NCBI RefSeq assembly: GCF_029714425.1
Contig: NZ_CP121668.1
Span: forward strand, 868,001 to 932,000
Reading direction: 5' to 3'
DNA from: Bradyrhizobium sp. CB2312
GTDB taxonomy: Bacteria; Pseudomonadota; Alphaproteobacteria; Rhizobiales; Xanthobacteraceae
DNA length: 64,000 nt
This document shows, piece after piece, positions 22,608 through 27,838 of the stretch (position 1 is the stretch's first letter; each line of letters opens with the position of its first letter). The position numbers and the translations under genes were made by a program. A model generated the notes under the pieces. That model ran no database searches, had not been told where the DNA came from, and saw only the letters and a list, made by a program, of their open reading frames with translations.

Positions 22608-23339
22608 CTAGTTAAACGCCATCCCGCCGCTCAGCGCGATGGTCTGCCCGGTCATGTAGGCATTTTCCACCAGCAGCATCACGGCTTTCGCCACCTCGTC
22701 CGCCGTGCCGAAACGGCCGAGCGGAATGCGGCCGACGAGTTGCGGCTGGCCGCTCATCATGTCGGTCTCGATCAGCGACGGCGCCACGGCATTGACGGTG
22801 ATGCCTTCCTTGACCAGCCGCGCCGCATAACCGCGCGTGAGCCCCTCCATGCCGGCCTTGGACGCGTTATAGTGCGGGCCGATCGAGCCGGCGCCGCGCG
22901 CCGCACCGGAGGAGATGTTGACGATGCGGCCCCATTCGCGTGCGCGCATCGAGGGCAGCACGGCCTGCGTGCACAGGAACACCGACTTCAGATTGACCAG
23001 TATGGTCCGGTCGAAATCGTCCTCGGTGAGATCGTCGATACCGCGCGTGATGGCGATGCCGGCATTGTTGACGAGGATGTCGATGGGGCCGAGCCCGCCG
23101 CTGACGCGCTCCACCATGTCAGCGACGGCCTCGCGCTGCGAGACGTCGGCGGCGACGACGATGGCACGGCCGCCCTGCCGGCTGATCTCGCCCGCCAATT
23201 GCTCGGCCTGGCCGATCTGTTCGCGGCAGTTGATCGCCACGGCGGCGCCGGCCTCGGCCAGCGCGCGACAGACGGCGGCGCCGATTCCGCGCGAGCCGCC
23301 GGTGACGAGCGCCGTGCGCCCCTTCAGATCATTTGCCAT
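22608..23339 (-). CDS. Short-chain dehydrogenase/reductase (FabG-like)
   Basis: NAD(P)-dependent reductase of 243 residues. TGGSRGIG (near residue 14) is the cofactor loop, NNAG the structural motif, and the Ser...YNASK segment carries the catalytic Tyr and Lys. The 3-oxoacyl-ACP or acetoacetyl-CoA reductase subfamily is suggested by the IETDMM and GQTIALSGG segments. Start MANDLKGRTALVTGG at 23339 is the natural N-terminus. It stands alone on the minus strand, so the pathway is not shown by context. Confidence 0.88.
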   Translation of the reverse strand: MANDLKGRTALVTGGSRGIGAAVCRALAEAGAAVAINCREQIGQAEQLAGEISRQGGRAIVVAADVSQREAVADMVERVSGGLGPIDILVNNAGIAITRGIDDLTEDDFDRTILVNLKSVFLCTQAVLPSMRAREWGRIVNISSGAARGAGSIGPHYNASKAGMEGLTRGYAARLVKEGITVNAVAPSLIETDMMSGQPQLVGRIPLGRFGTADEVAKAVMLLVENAYMTGQTIALSGGMAFN

Positions 23340-23595
23340 ACCCGTATCTCCCGATTTTCTCTTGCGCCCACCGGGAACGTAGCATGCCGGCCGCGCGGCC
23401 GTGTTGAACTCATCGCGAGATAAATCCGGCTGCGGGCGCTTGCCGCGGGAGAAGCGCTCCAGCGCGCTCACGACAAATATGGATAGCCATTTCATTGACC
23501 AATCGTGCCAACCGCTCGATATTCGAAGCGTCGAAACTGCTCCTCGAGCCTGAAGCCGCGATATGAGAACCGATCACCAGCGTAACAGAGGCGAC
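23340..23595. other. Intergenic region with divergent promoters, no gene seen
   Basis: The gap between the minus-strand SDR and the plus-strand leader frame holds no convincing coding sequence; a 63-codon minus frame in it lacks recognisable features. It must contain the promoters of both units. Confidence 0.5.
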
Positions 23596-23658
23596 ATGCA
23601 TGCGTGCATGACGCGGCGCTGTTTCTCGGCCGCCACAGGCGCCTGTTGCTGTTGCTGA
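23596..23658 (+). CDS. Cysteine-rich leader peptide (uORF)
   Basis: A 20-codon reading frame, MHACMTRRCFSAATGACCCC, with six cysteines, four of them consecutive immediately before the TGA stop. AGAGG at 23587-23591 is well placed as a ribosome binding site. It lies 71 bp upstream of a two-gene unit for a small protein and a sulfonate-binding protein. Tandem regulatory codons just before a stop are the mark of amino-acid-sensing leader peptides, and cysteine-tract leaders controlling sulfur genes are established in mycobacteria. The inferred role is that ribosome stalling at Cys codons under cysteine shortage opens downstream expression. Too short for statistical gene calls, so the evidence is composition, ribosome binding site and context. 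Confidence 0.6.
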   Translation: MHACMTRRCFSAATGACCCC

Positions 23659-23702
23659 CCGCCTCCTAGCAACACCTCACACCGCAAATCCCAAGACAGG
23701 AA

Positions 23703-23718
23703 CGCCGAGACTTCGGCG
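23703..23718 (+). promoter_or_regulatory. Small hairpin before the 23730 start
   Basis: CGCCGA (23703-23708), loop GACT, TCGGCG (23713-23718) form a perfect 6-bp stem ending 11 nt before the ATG at 23730, close to the ribosome binding region. It could be the switchable element responding to the Cys-rich leader upstream. Confidence 0.4.
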
Positions 23719-23729
23719 AACGAGCAGCC

Positions 23730-23951
23730 ATGTCCCAGACCCTATCGAACGCCTACATCATCGAAATCCACGACCGCGCCGCCGGCATCATCACCCGCGA
23801 TGAACGCGGCTTCCGCTTCTTCTCCTCCGAGCGCCTGTTCGACAGTCTCGAAGGCCGCCAGTTCCGATCGGCGCGCGACGCGGAGCGCGCTGCCCGCGCC
23901 GTATTCTCCGAGCGGAGCCGCCGCGCGAATTTCCGACTGTTCGCCAACTGA
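23730..23951 (+). CDS. Small conserved-looking protein upstream of ssuA
   Basis: A 73-residue soluble protein (MSQTLSNAYIIEIHDRAAGI...) with a short beta-like N-terminus and an Arg-rich helical C-terminus (FRSARDAERAARAVFSERSRRANFR). I do not recognise a family. It lies between the Cys-rich leader and the sulfonate-binding gene, only 21 bp ahead of the latter, so it is probably co-transcribed and under the same sulfur control. The coding potential is supported by GC-rich third positions and the tight spacing. Confidence 0.7.
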   Translation: MSQTLSNAYIIEIHDRAAGIITRDERGFRFFSSERLFDSLEGRQFRSARDAERAARAVFSERSRRANFRLFAN

Positions 23952-23972
23952 CCCCAGCGAAAGGACCGCGAT

Positions 23973-24926
23973 ATGATCAGCCGACGACACATCCTTGCGA
24001 CGACACTCCTGCTCGCCACCGCCCTGGCCGCCCCCGCGCACGCCGAGGACAAGCCCGCCGAAATTCGCATCGGCACACAGAAGGGCGGCTTCTTTCCGGC
24101 GGTGCGCCAGCGTCAGACGCTCGAGAACGCCTTCAAGCCGCTCGGCATCGAGGTCAAGTGGATCGACTTCCAGTTCGGCCCGCCGCTGCTCGAAGCCATC
24201 AATGTCGGCAGTGTCGATTTCGGCTATGTCGGCGACTCACCGCCGATCTTCGCGCAGGCCGGCGGCGCCAAGATCCGTTACGTCGCCGCGGTGAAATCGG
24301 AAGGCAACACCCAGGCGATCATCGTGCCAAAGGACTCACCCATCAAGACGCTCGCCGATCTCAAGGGCAAGCGCGTCGCCTTCGGCAAGGGATCGAGCGC
24401 GCACAATCTTCTGGTTGCGGCGCTCGAAAAGGCCGGCCTGTCCTGGTCCGACATCACGCCGGCGCCGCTCGCGCCGGCGGACGCGACGGCCGCCTTCGTC
24501 AAGGGCTCAGTCGATGCCTGGTCGATCTGGGATCCGTATCTCGCGCTTGCCGAATTGAAGGAGAACGCGCGCGTGATCGCCTTCGACAAGGACGTGCACA
24601 AGCCGAATGCGTTCTACATCGCCAACACGGATTTCGTGGAGAAATATCCGTCGCTGGTCGCGAAGCTCAACACGAGCTTCGCGTCCGAAGGCGTCTGGGC
24701 CAACGGACACCACGAGGACGTCGCCAAGGCGCAGGCCGACGCCACCGGCGTCGACATCGAGGCCGTCAGGCGTTTCGTGGCGCGCTCCAACTTCCGGGTC
24801 GTGCCGTTGGATGCCGAAATTGTCGCAAGCCAGCAGGCCGTCGCCGATCGCTTCGCAAAGCTCGGCCTGATCCCGAAGCCGGTCAACATCTCCGACATCG
24901 TCTGGAAGTGGACGCCGGGGTCGTGA
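23973..24926 (+). CDS. ssuA: Aliphatic sulfonate-binding periplasmic protein
   Basis: Substrate-binding protein of 317 residues for a sulfonate ABC importer. A Sec signal peptide (MISRRHILATTLLLATALAAPAHA) precedes the mature protein. VGDSPPIFAQAGGAKIRYVAA, AFGKGSSAHNLLVAALEKAG and VDAWSIWDPYLALAE are classic SsuA segments. The ATPase and permease (SsuB, SsuC) are not adjacent, so it is an orphan that must feed a transporter encoded elsewhere. It lies behind the Cys-rich leader frame, in line with sulfur-starvation control. Confidence 0.9.
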   Translation: MISRRHILATTLLLATALAAPAHAEDKPAEIRIGTQKGGFFPAVRQRQTLENAFKPLGIEVKWIDFQFGPPLLEAINVGSVDFGYVGDSPPIFAQAGGAKIRYVAAVKSEGNTQAIIVPKDSPIKTLADLKGKRVAFGKGSSAHNLLVAALEKAGLSWSDITPAPLAPADATAAFVKGSVDAWSIWDPYLALAELKENARVIAFDKDVHKPNAFYIANTDFVEKYPSLVAKLNTSFASEGVWANGHHEDVAKAQADATGVDIEAVRRFVARSNFRVVPLDAEIVASQQAVADRFAKLGLIPKPVNISDIVWKWTPGS

Positions 24927-24946
24927 GGGGTGCAGCGACGCAACGT

Positions 24947-25032
24947 CGTCATGCCCGGGCTTGTCCCGGGCATCCACGTTCTTTCCTCTGTGTGGGTAGG
25001 CGTGGATGGCCGGGACAAGCCCGGCCATGACG
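24947..25032. repeat. CGTCATGCCCGGGC inverted-repeat element, copy 1
   Basis: CGTCATGCCCGGGCTTGTCC at the left mirrors GGACAAGCCCGGCCATGACG at the right, enclosing a variable centre. The same family is at 60637-60719. It directly follows ssuA. Confidence 0.8.
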
Positions 25033-25081
25033 CTCGTGGAGGCTGTCTTGGTCCAAACTCTTACGTCGGAGGCGACTCCGC

Positions 25082-25126
25082 CCTCATCCCGAGGAGCCCG
25101 CCCAAGCGGGCGTCTCGAAGGATGGG
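25082..25126. repeat. CCTCATCC-GAGGAGC repeat, short copy
   Basis: CCTCATCCCGAGGAGCCCGC and the following GGGCGTCTCGAAGGATGG match the left part of the element at 43103-43236. Only this half is present here. Confidence 0.65.
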
Positions 25127-26542: not shown

Positions 26543-27838
26543 TCAGACCTTTTGCGAGATGCGCAGCGCCTGCGCCAGATCGTCGATGATGTCGGAGGCG
26601 GTCTCGATGCCGACCGAGAGCCGCACCAGCTCCTCGCCGATGCCGGCCGCCTTGAGCTGCTCGGCGTCCATCTGCTGATGCGTGGTCGAGGCGGGGTGGA
26701 TCACCAGCGTCTTGGCGTCGCCGACATTGGCGAGATGGCTGATCATGCGCAGCGATTCGATGAACTTGCGCCCGGCAGGCCGGCCGCCCTTGATACCGAA
26801 GGAGACGATCGAGCCGGCGCCGCGCGGCAGCAATGTCTTTGCGAGTTGATAGTCCGTGTGATCCTCGAGCGACGGATGCAGCACCCAGTCAACAGCCTTG
26901 TTCGACTTCAGCGCCTCCAGCACCAGATGCGTATTCTGCATGTGCCGGTCCATGCGCACGCCGAGCGTCTCGACGCCCTGCAAGAGCTGGAACGCGTCGG
27001 TCGGCGACAGGCAGGCGCCGAAATCGCGCAGGCCCTCGGTGCGCGCGCGCATGATGAACGCCGCCGTGCCGAACTGCTCGTCGAAGACGATGCCGTGATA
27101 GCCGCCATACGGCTCGGTCAGCACAGCAAACTTGCCTGAGTCGCGCCAGTCGAAGCGGCCGCCGTCGACGATGGCGCCGCCGATCGCGATGCCGTGGCCG
27201 CCGATCCATTTGGTCGCCGAATGCATCACGATGTCGGCGCCCAGCTCGATCGGGCGGCTGAGATAGGGCGTGGCAAAGGTGTTGTCGATCAACAGCGGAA
27301 TCCTTGCCTCATGCGCGATCGCCGCGACCTTGGGAATGTCGAGCACCTCGAGCCCGGGATTGCCGATGGTCTCGCCGATCACAAGCTTCGTGTTCGGCTT
27401 GATCGCCGCGCGGAACGCGTCGAGATCGCGCGGCTTCACGAACGTGGTGGTGATGCCGAAGCGCGGCAGCGTATGCGCCAGAAGGTTGATGGTGCCGCCA
27501 TAGAGCGAGCTCGACGCCACGATATGGTCGCCTGCATTGAGCAGCGTCGCGATGCCCAGATGCAGCGCGGCCATGCCGCTCGCGGTGCAGATCGCGCCCA
27601 CGCCCCCTTCGAGCGCCGCGAGCCGCTCCTCCAGCACGCCGGTGGTCGGATTGGAGATGCGCGTATAGATGTGGCCGGCGCGCTCCAGGTTGAACAGCGC
27701 AGCCGCGTGGTCGGAATCCTGGAACACGTAGGACGTGGTCTGGTAGATCGGCACCGCCCGGGCGCCGGTCGCGGGATCCGGATGCTGGCCCGCATGCAGG
27801 CTCAGGGTTTCGAAGGCAGGCGGTTTCGGCGCGGGCAT
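26543..27838 (-). CDS. metY: O-acetylhomoserine sulfhydrylase (MetY type)
   Basis: PLP enzyme of the Cys/Met metabolism family, 431 residues, converting O-acetylhomoserine and sulfide to homocysteine. The PLP lysine lies in MHSATKWIGGHG, and the N-terminal FETLSLHAGQHPDPATGARAVPIYQTTSY plus the C-terminal SVGIETASDIIDDLAQAL are diagnostic. The 431-residue length favours MetY over shorter MetZ/MetB. Together with the sulfonate-binding protein nearby it gives the region a sulfur-assimilation theme. A methanethiol-using variant cannot be excluded. Confidence 0.92.
   Translation of the reverse strand: MPAPKPPAFETLSLHAGQHPDPATGARAVPIYQTTSYVFQDSDHAAALFNLERAGHIYTRISNPTTGVLEERLAALEGGVGAICTASGMAALHLGIATLLNAGDHIVASSSLYGGTINLLAHTLPRFGITTTFVKPRDLDAFRAAIKPNTKLVIGETIGNPGLEVLDIPKVAAIAHEARIPLLIDNTFATPYLSRPIELGADIVMHSATKWIGGHGIAIGGAIVDGGRFDWRDSGKFAVLTEPYGGYHGIVFDEQFGTAAFIMRARTEGLRDFGACLSPTDAFQLLQGVETLGVRMDRHMQNTHLVLEALKSNKAVDWVLHPSLEDHTDYQLAKTLLPRGAGSIVSFGIKGGRPAGRKFIESLRMISHLANVGDAKTLVIHPASTTHQQMDAEQLKAAGIGEELVRLSVGIETASDIIDDLAQALRISQKV

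Follow-up and report, generated by a model that had tools for sequence, protein, structure and literature searches.

A conserved leader peptide with an invariant cysteine upstream of sulfonate genes in Bradyrhizobium: a candidate translational attenuator

The polycysteine leader ORFs of mycobacteria are cysteine-responsive attenuators, as passages of PMC13236596, PMC9031893 and PMC9094748 report in citing Canestrari et al. (2020). Candidate Cys-rich uORFs have been proposed from ribosome profiling (PMC4633059, in extract), and leaders with runs of Cys codons were predicted before actinobacterial cys and cbs genes by Seliverstov et al. (2005; PMC1262725, in extract). An overview of RNA elements in Alphaproteobacteria (PMC1273637, in extract) contains nothing like the leader described here. 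Among the matches listed from the open-licence literature there was no Cys leader in Alphaproteobacteria or for sulfonate scavenging, which is weak evidence in line with a preliminary description of this DNA, where a Cys leader ahead of ssuA was held to be undescribed in this group.

The leader frame and its conserved core

The leader lies in a window of 64,000 nucleotides, the whole stretch of DNA that was analyzed, from the 9.78 Mb genome of Bradyrhizobium sp. CB2312. As first noted, it is a frame of 20 codons (23596..23658, plus strand) that reads MHACMTRRCFSAATGACCCC*, with six Cys codons at positions 4, 9 and 17-20, a CCCC abutting the TGA stop, and 71 nt between that stop and the ATG (23730) of a gene for a 73-aa protein. 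All of these particulars are exact in the window sequence. The AGAGG named as its ribosome binding site is present at 23587-23591, but it is absent from all other alignment rows that cover the position. Codons 7-17 make up the core, RRCFSAATGAC, and the Cys tail of codons 18-20 is variable.

Conservation was assessed in loci for which the leader had no role in the choice: named genomes were searched with the downstream 73-aa family only, and the best 80 of 114 matches were taken. About 260 nt upstream of each 73-aa gene were scanned for RRCxSAATGxC at a threshold of at least 7/9. Such a frame occurs in 77/80 loci compared to 1/1,370 control windows of the same loci, and the exact motif is found in 66/80; because nearly all of these loci belong to one genus, they are related samples and not independent. 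Three loci fall below the threshold: L157 has no leader score owing to a contig end, L148 has a diverged leader (VQCRISVATGGCCCC*) ahead of an SsuD-like gene, and the leader of L149 is degenerate. Judged by these comparisons, the leader frame is real and not a chance frame.

The full leader is likely longer than 20 codons. An in-frame ATG at 23563 occurs in 74/77 loci and would give an ORF of 31 codons (23563..23658, plus strand; MRTDHQRNRGDMHACMTRRCFSAATGACCCC*); the exceptions are L154 and L170, where Met comes one codon later, and L111, where it is shifted. The length from Met to Cys17 is 28 codons in Bradyrhizobium, in Tardiphaga-type loci and in L252, a locus of a further genus (g309) whose leader is MKMCLRTLTRLFGTVFYSRQAIAATGAC*, with 28 codons from first Met to last Cys. 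Because the ATG is kept and this length is shared by the L252 and Tardiphaga-type leaders, 23563 is the likelier start than 23596. A sigma70-type promoter for the leader transcript, TTGACC-17-GATATT, is predicted at 23495..23523 (plus strand; 9/12 matches), its -10 box ending 39 nt before the likely ATG. The promoter search of the region found two sites compared to 0.3 expected, and TTGAC[CG]-17-GATNNT stands upstream of 76/77 leaders. A divergent short-chain dehydrogenase frame (window 22608-23495, minus strand) extends to the -35 box of the predicted promoter; its true start probably lies further in.

Parsimony on a tree of the 77 leader regions assigns 21, 9 and 83 changes to the first, second and third positions of codons 8-18, compared to 66, 101 and 118 for codons -9 to 0. 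With changes treated as independent, the third-position share of the core (83/113) departs from one third at p ~3e-18 and from the N-terminal share at p ~9e-9. The leader peptide is therefore under strong selection in its core, as changes in codons 8-18 concentrate on third positions, a pattern characteristic of peptides that are translated, here in the frame first noted. The N-terminal part of the leader is weakly constrained.

Among the 77 loci, R8 and C9 are each kept in 76, S11, A12, A13 and T14 each in 75, G15 in 74 and C17 in all. Behind Cys17 there are none to three further Cys: Cys stands at codon 18 in 74 loci, at codon 19 in 64 (ten others have a stop there) and at codon 20 in 61. 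By these counts, leaders vary in how many Cys they have but keep Cys17 and the residues before it, and the conserved unit as aligned is the peptide RRC[FV]SAATGxC, not the Cys run. The preliminary description would have taken a conserved frame and Cys run, with synonymous drift elsewhere, as support. The frame and the drift are borne out, but the run is not kept, and six Cys cannot be called a conserved feature when only Cys17 is fixed.

The codon for Cys17 (TGT, 23644..23646, plus strand), the proposed stall site, has zero inferred change at any position in 77/77 loci. It reads TGT in 82/83 unique cores of a larger set; in 34 long ORFs of the window, TGT accounts for 19 of 120 Cys codons. Third-position changes number 5, 3, 0 and 3 at codons 15 to 18 and 10, 16, 24 and 16 at codons 9, 11, 13 and 14. 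Their scarcity at codons 15-18 may reflect a constraint at the RNA level; they are also low at codons 8, 10 and 12 (1, 2 and 3).

These counts bear on two ways in which the leader might work. Under the plain hungry-codon model of the classical amino-acid leaders, nothing but the Cys codons would count. The Cys tail of most loci (codons 18, 19 and 20 in 74, 64 and 61 of 77) and the sulfonate genes downstream would suit such a leader, but the non-Cys residues of the core are about equally conserved, some leaders have only two Cys in total (L168, L160 and L252), and no terminator-like hairpin is found, which leaves this explanation distinctly unlikely. Stalling on Cys codons, as originally suggested, keeps a basis in the conserved Cys leader frame, but not as a plain run of hungry codons, since R8 and S11-G15 are about as fixed as Cys.

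Alternatively, RRCxSAATGxC may be an arrest peptide like TnaC that stalls for a sulfur metabolite or free cysteine, with Cys-tRNA supply not being the signal. Ribosome arrest peptides have conserved residues close to the stall site, and here the residues within about 10 of Cys17 are nearly fixed as the N-terminus drifts. The constant 28-codon length from Met to Cys17 in Bradyrhizobium, Tardiphaga-type loci and L252 would also be expected, as would the three leaders just named, from which the Cys tail is absent. However, a pure ligand sensor would have no need of a Cys tail, and the tail is usual (Cys18 in 74/77). We consider such a sensor unlikely.

Genes downstream and distribution of the leader

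The constant downstream partner of the leader is the 73-aa gene (23730..23951, plus strand). Its product, a relative of Bsr1232, contains no Cys, has its start as the sole Met, and matches no Pfam or NCBIfam model. A search for relatives passed 1,613 proteins; among the 120 listed, none is functionally named and one is Bsr1232 itself. Next comes an ssuA-like gene for an aliphatic sulfonate substrate-binding protein (23973..24926, plus strand; TIGR01728 at 252.8 bits against a cut-off of 163.5, with the NF008588 score under its cut-off), the product of which has 0 Cys and 1 Met. In the arrangement first described, the leader precedes the small gene and ssuA. The small gene is constant, but ssuA is found behind it in 54 of the 74 loci with enough contig and is missing in 20, and in further species the leader and the 73-aa gene stay with ssuA gone. 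The broader claim holds: a leader frame whose codon pattern is that of a translated peptide precedes sulfonate genes and is conserved across species.

The other downstream genes searched by family are all of sulfonate or sulfur type. SsuD-like monooxygenases, below NCBIfam cut-offs, occur downstream in L072, L169 and also L148; L170 (BTAi1) has a TauD-family gene and a MetN-like ATPase, both below NCBIfam cut-offs, with TauD over its Pfam cut-off; and L168 has an NtaA/DmoA-type monooxygenase, over its cut-off, behind ssuA. Departures from the leader motif are commoner without ssuA (9/20 compared to 6/54, p 0.003), also when four non-comparable loci are dropped (6/16 compared to 6/54, p 0.02), with kinship ignored in both tests. 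Of the SsuA-like proteins long enough to count, 51/52 are without Cys and 44/52 have a single Met, numbers that come with no matched controls. Proteins so poor in Cys and Met fit synthesis under sulfur shortage.

At 20 other loci of the same genome (19 of the other 36 SsuA-family matches and one sulfate-binding gene), no leader with the motif was found; three short, motif-less frames with three Cys near the end occur at these loci. An O-acetylhomoserine aminocarboxypropyltransferase gene (window 26543-27838, minus strand; NF006004 over cut-off) lies 1.6 kb past ssuA.

At the class level, a peptide profile matched 2/385 genomes at E <1e-6, both of the leader's own genus, with at most 23 candidates scored per genome. 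At the family level it matched 15/248 genomes at E up to 5.9e-5 (seven of the own genus, seven of g325 and one of g344), and one of these 15, G608, is a remnant. A covariance model matched 20/296 genomes of the family at E up to 4.5e-10 (12/27 of the own genus, seven of g325 and one of g344) and 4/297 of the order, all four within the family. In this filtered search a full match is missing in 15/27 own-genus genomes; because filters were used, absence in the distribution searches is not certain. Weak covariance matches above E 1e-8 numbered 33 as listed, of which 19 were inspected. The 73-aa gene was present in one of the 16 outside the own genus (L252, a true case) and in one of the three within it (L265, where the leader is absent).

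The genomes with no full match in the filtered search, together with motif departures in some ssuA-less lineages, might suggest a chance frame or the fossil of an old gene with no regulatory role. The third-position bias and the invariant Cys17 across 77 loci contradict this, as does the motif's occurrence in a single one of the 1,370 control windows, and such an origin is hardly credible.

Several look-alikes and oddities were met in these searches. The peptide profile suggested a second leader copy (G000:C1:2191673) and similar peptides in other genomes, which were rejected: the L061 copy lies out of frame inside a long gene, by eye one for a 2-oxoacid:ferredoxin oxidoreductase, and the others are the same out-of-frame peptide. 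In G608:C5 (L071/L267), a deletion apparently runs from the SAATG codons of the leader into ssuA, leaving a leader-ssuA remnant, and no 73-aa gene is found within the surrounding 5.5 kb. Records titled Frankia sp. RB7 and Burkholderiales MAG (L108 and L157) hold Bradyrhizobium-like copies of the 73-aa gene; their labels may be wrong or the contigs misplaced.

RNA elements before the 73-aa gene

The hairpin CGCCGA-GACT-TCGGCG (23703..23718, plus strand) lies shortly ahead of the ATG of the 73-aa gene. Its six perfect base pairs are exact in the window, as originally reported, and it also covaries across relatives. The alignment used here (A6) comprises 92 of 93 unique segments, with L134 omitted as too long. 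L139 is outside the 93-segment set, as the script found no in-frame ATG there; within A6, the hairpin of L015 is aligned one base out of register, and four leaders that have one Cys codon less carry gaps in the arm. The hairpin is paired in 93.1% of cells, has two-sided changes in 4/6 pairs, and reaches a covariation score equaled in 0/500 shuffles. Of the two-sided cells, 20/23 belong to the outermost pair on the loop side, a pair that does not form in 32 rows; three inner pairs contribute one each. Sliding the hairpin by -1 gives a score of 0.110 compared to 0.108, yet only 42.9% of cells are then paired. In this alignment, the hairpin is conserved with compensatory changes, mostly through one pair.

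No terminator-like site was found in 23380-25100, where 1.4 are expected in shuffles. At gathering scores, Rfam models match two tRNAs only in the whole window, and there is no Rfam match at E up to 10 in 23380-24000.

Paralogues of the 73-aa gene in 11 loci (L021-L030 and L063) have no such hairpin. In L172 (which covers L063), L173 and L177, the paralogue is near genes that by eye resemble those of a GlpR-type regulator and GlpD, with neither leader nor hairpin, so the 73-aa family has another context as well. L265 (G669:C1, ~6061) has the 73-aa gene, a GACAGGA box and the hairpin but is leaderless, the gene being in frame with a short upstream stretch. By eye, its neighbors are the end of an ssuB gene before, and a substrate-binding protein and a TauD-like gene after. 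Because G669 keeps hairpin and gene in this way, the hairpin may belong to the 73-aa gene's own start site.

The peptide may instead work in trans, or sense a metal via its cysteines, with the RNA features merely setting the strength of the 73-aa start site. Cys-containing leaders that respond to copper exist in other Proteobacteria, and both the conservation at the peptide level and the leaderless hairpin of G669 could be explained in this way. Against it are the hint of RNA-level constraint on codons 15-18, the fact that confirmed leaders always adjoin the same gene family, and a gene context of sulfonates, not metals. This alternative is very unlikely.

A second RNA pairing may link the leader to the next start. 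The proposed leader arm, GGCGCCTGTT (23638..23647, plus strand), spans codons 15-17 and the first base of codon 18 and is complementary to 23695-23706. The GACAGGAA box (23695..23702, plus strand) may serve the 73-aa gene as Shine-Dalgarno region; the G, G and A of its GGA are each kept in at least 90% of A6 rows. In A6, the GGCGCCTGTT arm and the GACAGGAACGCC stretch are paired in 94.7% of cells, compared to 31-56% when slid. No pair has two-sided changes and shuffles reach the covariation value; as aligned, the arm-box pairing is conserved in sequence without covariation support. In Tardiphaga-type loci the leader arm misfits the box.

Folding of 93 sequences was predicted with a mask for a ribosome at Cys17, and with control masks at Cys9 and upstream. 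The Cys17 mask reduces leader-box pairing from 0.41 to 0.00 and raises the hairpin from 0.69 to 0.81, compared to 0.64 (Cys9) and 0.60 (upstream) with the control masks. The AGGA box opens only slightly, its mean going from 0.32 to 0.38 with gains above 0.05 in 37/93 sequences, and the AUG becomes slightly less open (0.47 to 0.41). In the window sequence, the Cys17 mask changes pairing from 0.44 to 0.00, the hairpin from 0.46 to 0.95 and the box from 0.29 to 0.34. The control masks raise that hairpin too, from 0.46 to 0.94 (Cys9) and 0.82 (far upstream), so its rise is not specific to Cys17. The stability of the 231-nt leader region is not unusual (z -0.47). A thermodynamic switch between arm-box pairing and hairpin is plausible but finds no clear support in these models, and is weakened by the action of the control masks and by the weight of one pair in the covariation. 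The opening of the downstream binding site, as the preliminary description proposed, is likewise plausible, given that the arms can pair in 94.7% of cells; that part of the proposal, however, finds no covariation and only a weak folding response.

A possible mechanism and its relation to known systems

The reading we favor, at a probability of roughly 45%, is that the leader is a cis-acting translational attenuator of the sulfonate genes, with a stall at Cys17 aided by the nascent peptide. Cysteine supply is the likely signal. Aid from the nascent peptide is favored because the plain hungry-codon explanation fails on the fixed non-Cys residues and the two-Cys leaders, and the ligand sensor fails on the usual Cys tail.

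In this attenuator, transcripts would start from the conserved promoter and their first frame, of 28-31 codons, would be translated. Under cysteine shortage the ribosome would stall with Cys17 or Cys18 in the A site, aided by the nascent RRCxSAATG residues in the upper part of the exit tunnel. The stalled ribosome would cover GGCGCCTGT, which would otherwise be paired with the ACAGGA...CGCC region. With GGCGCCTGT covered, the hairpin before the AUG would form, and the 73-aa and sulfonate genes would be translated. When cysteine is ample, the ribosome would clear the leader and the arm-box pairing would lower initiation.

The frequency of the motif (77/80 compared to 1/1,370), the third-position bias, the invariant Cys17, the hairpin covariation, the kept arms, the scarce third-position changes at codons 15-18, the sulfur-type neighbors, the SsuA-like proteins poor in Cys and Met, and the more frequent motif departures where ssuA is absent all speak for this attenuator. 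Several findings speak against it. The arm-box pairing has no covariation, the folding effect is weak, the hairpin's rise in the window sequence is shared with the control masks, the Tardiphaga-type arm misfits, and 15/27 own-genus genomes have no full match. G669 keeps the hairpin and the 73-aa gene with no leader. Finally, Cys9 precedes Cys17, so a Cys-starved ribosome would meet Cys9 first.

A further-reaching idea is that the leaders are arrest peptides of a new family that senses cysteine or sulfur: RRC[FV]SAATG in the tunnel would halt the ribosome at the invariant Cys, and the same bases would encode the sensor peptide while also forming the strand that shuts the next start. This is tentative, and we lean against it. 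If the favored reading is true, cysteine leader control, known from Actinobacteria, would extend to Alphaproteobacteria with the peptide sequence itself conserved, and the leader would offer a small, naturally occurring candidate arrest peptide responsive to cysteine. A 73-aa family with no assigned function would be tied to sulfonate use, and Bradyrhizobium, where the annotated gene Bsr1232 is related to the regulated one, would provide a ready test system. Sulfur supply is important to soil life and to nitrogen-fixing symbiosis.

The leader has the general features of a Cys leader: it is a short ORF, it has Cys codons close to the stop, and sulfur genes follow it. A consecutive Cys run is not among its conserved features. 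It also has the conserved residues near the stall site that are expected of an arrest peptide, with the stall site placed by inference. To our knowledge, TnaC has no Cys tail. Otherwise, TnaC-type arrest peptides (PMC10941005, in extract) are similar, with conserved residues and a short leader ORF that precedes genes for transport and catabolism; TnaC is a known arrest peptide, whereas arrest is proposed here from sequence. The Sinorhizobium leader peTrpL, likewise an attenuator leader peptide in an alphaproteobacterium, is described in the extract of PMC7298713 as a transcription attenuator of the trp type, in contrast to the present locus with no terminator-like site. The actinobacterial cys and cbs leaders share Cys codon runs near the stop and a place upstream of sulfur amino-acid genes; in the part seen of PMC1262725 they have no conserved terminator-capable hairpin, whereas here a covarying hairpin precedes the next start. 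The mycobacterial polycysteine leaders, as the citing passages describe them, are also short ORFs with contiguous Cys codons that regulate downstream genes. Their attenuation depends on cysteine supply, a dependence only proposed here, and they are leaderless; at our locus the predicted promoter lies some 40 nt ahead of the likely start. By description rather than by peptide comparison, the leader reported here is set apart from them by its conserved core and variable Cys run, and by its occurrence in Alphaproteobacteria ahead of sulfonate genes.
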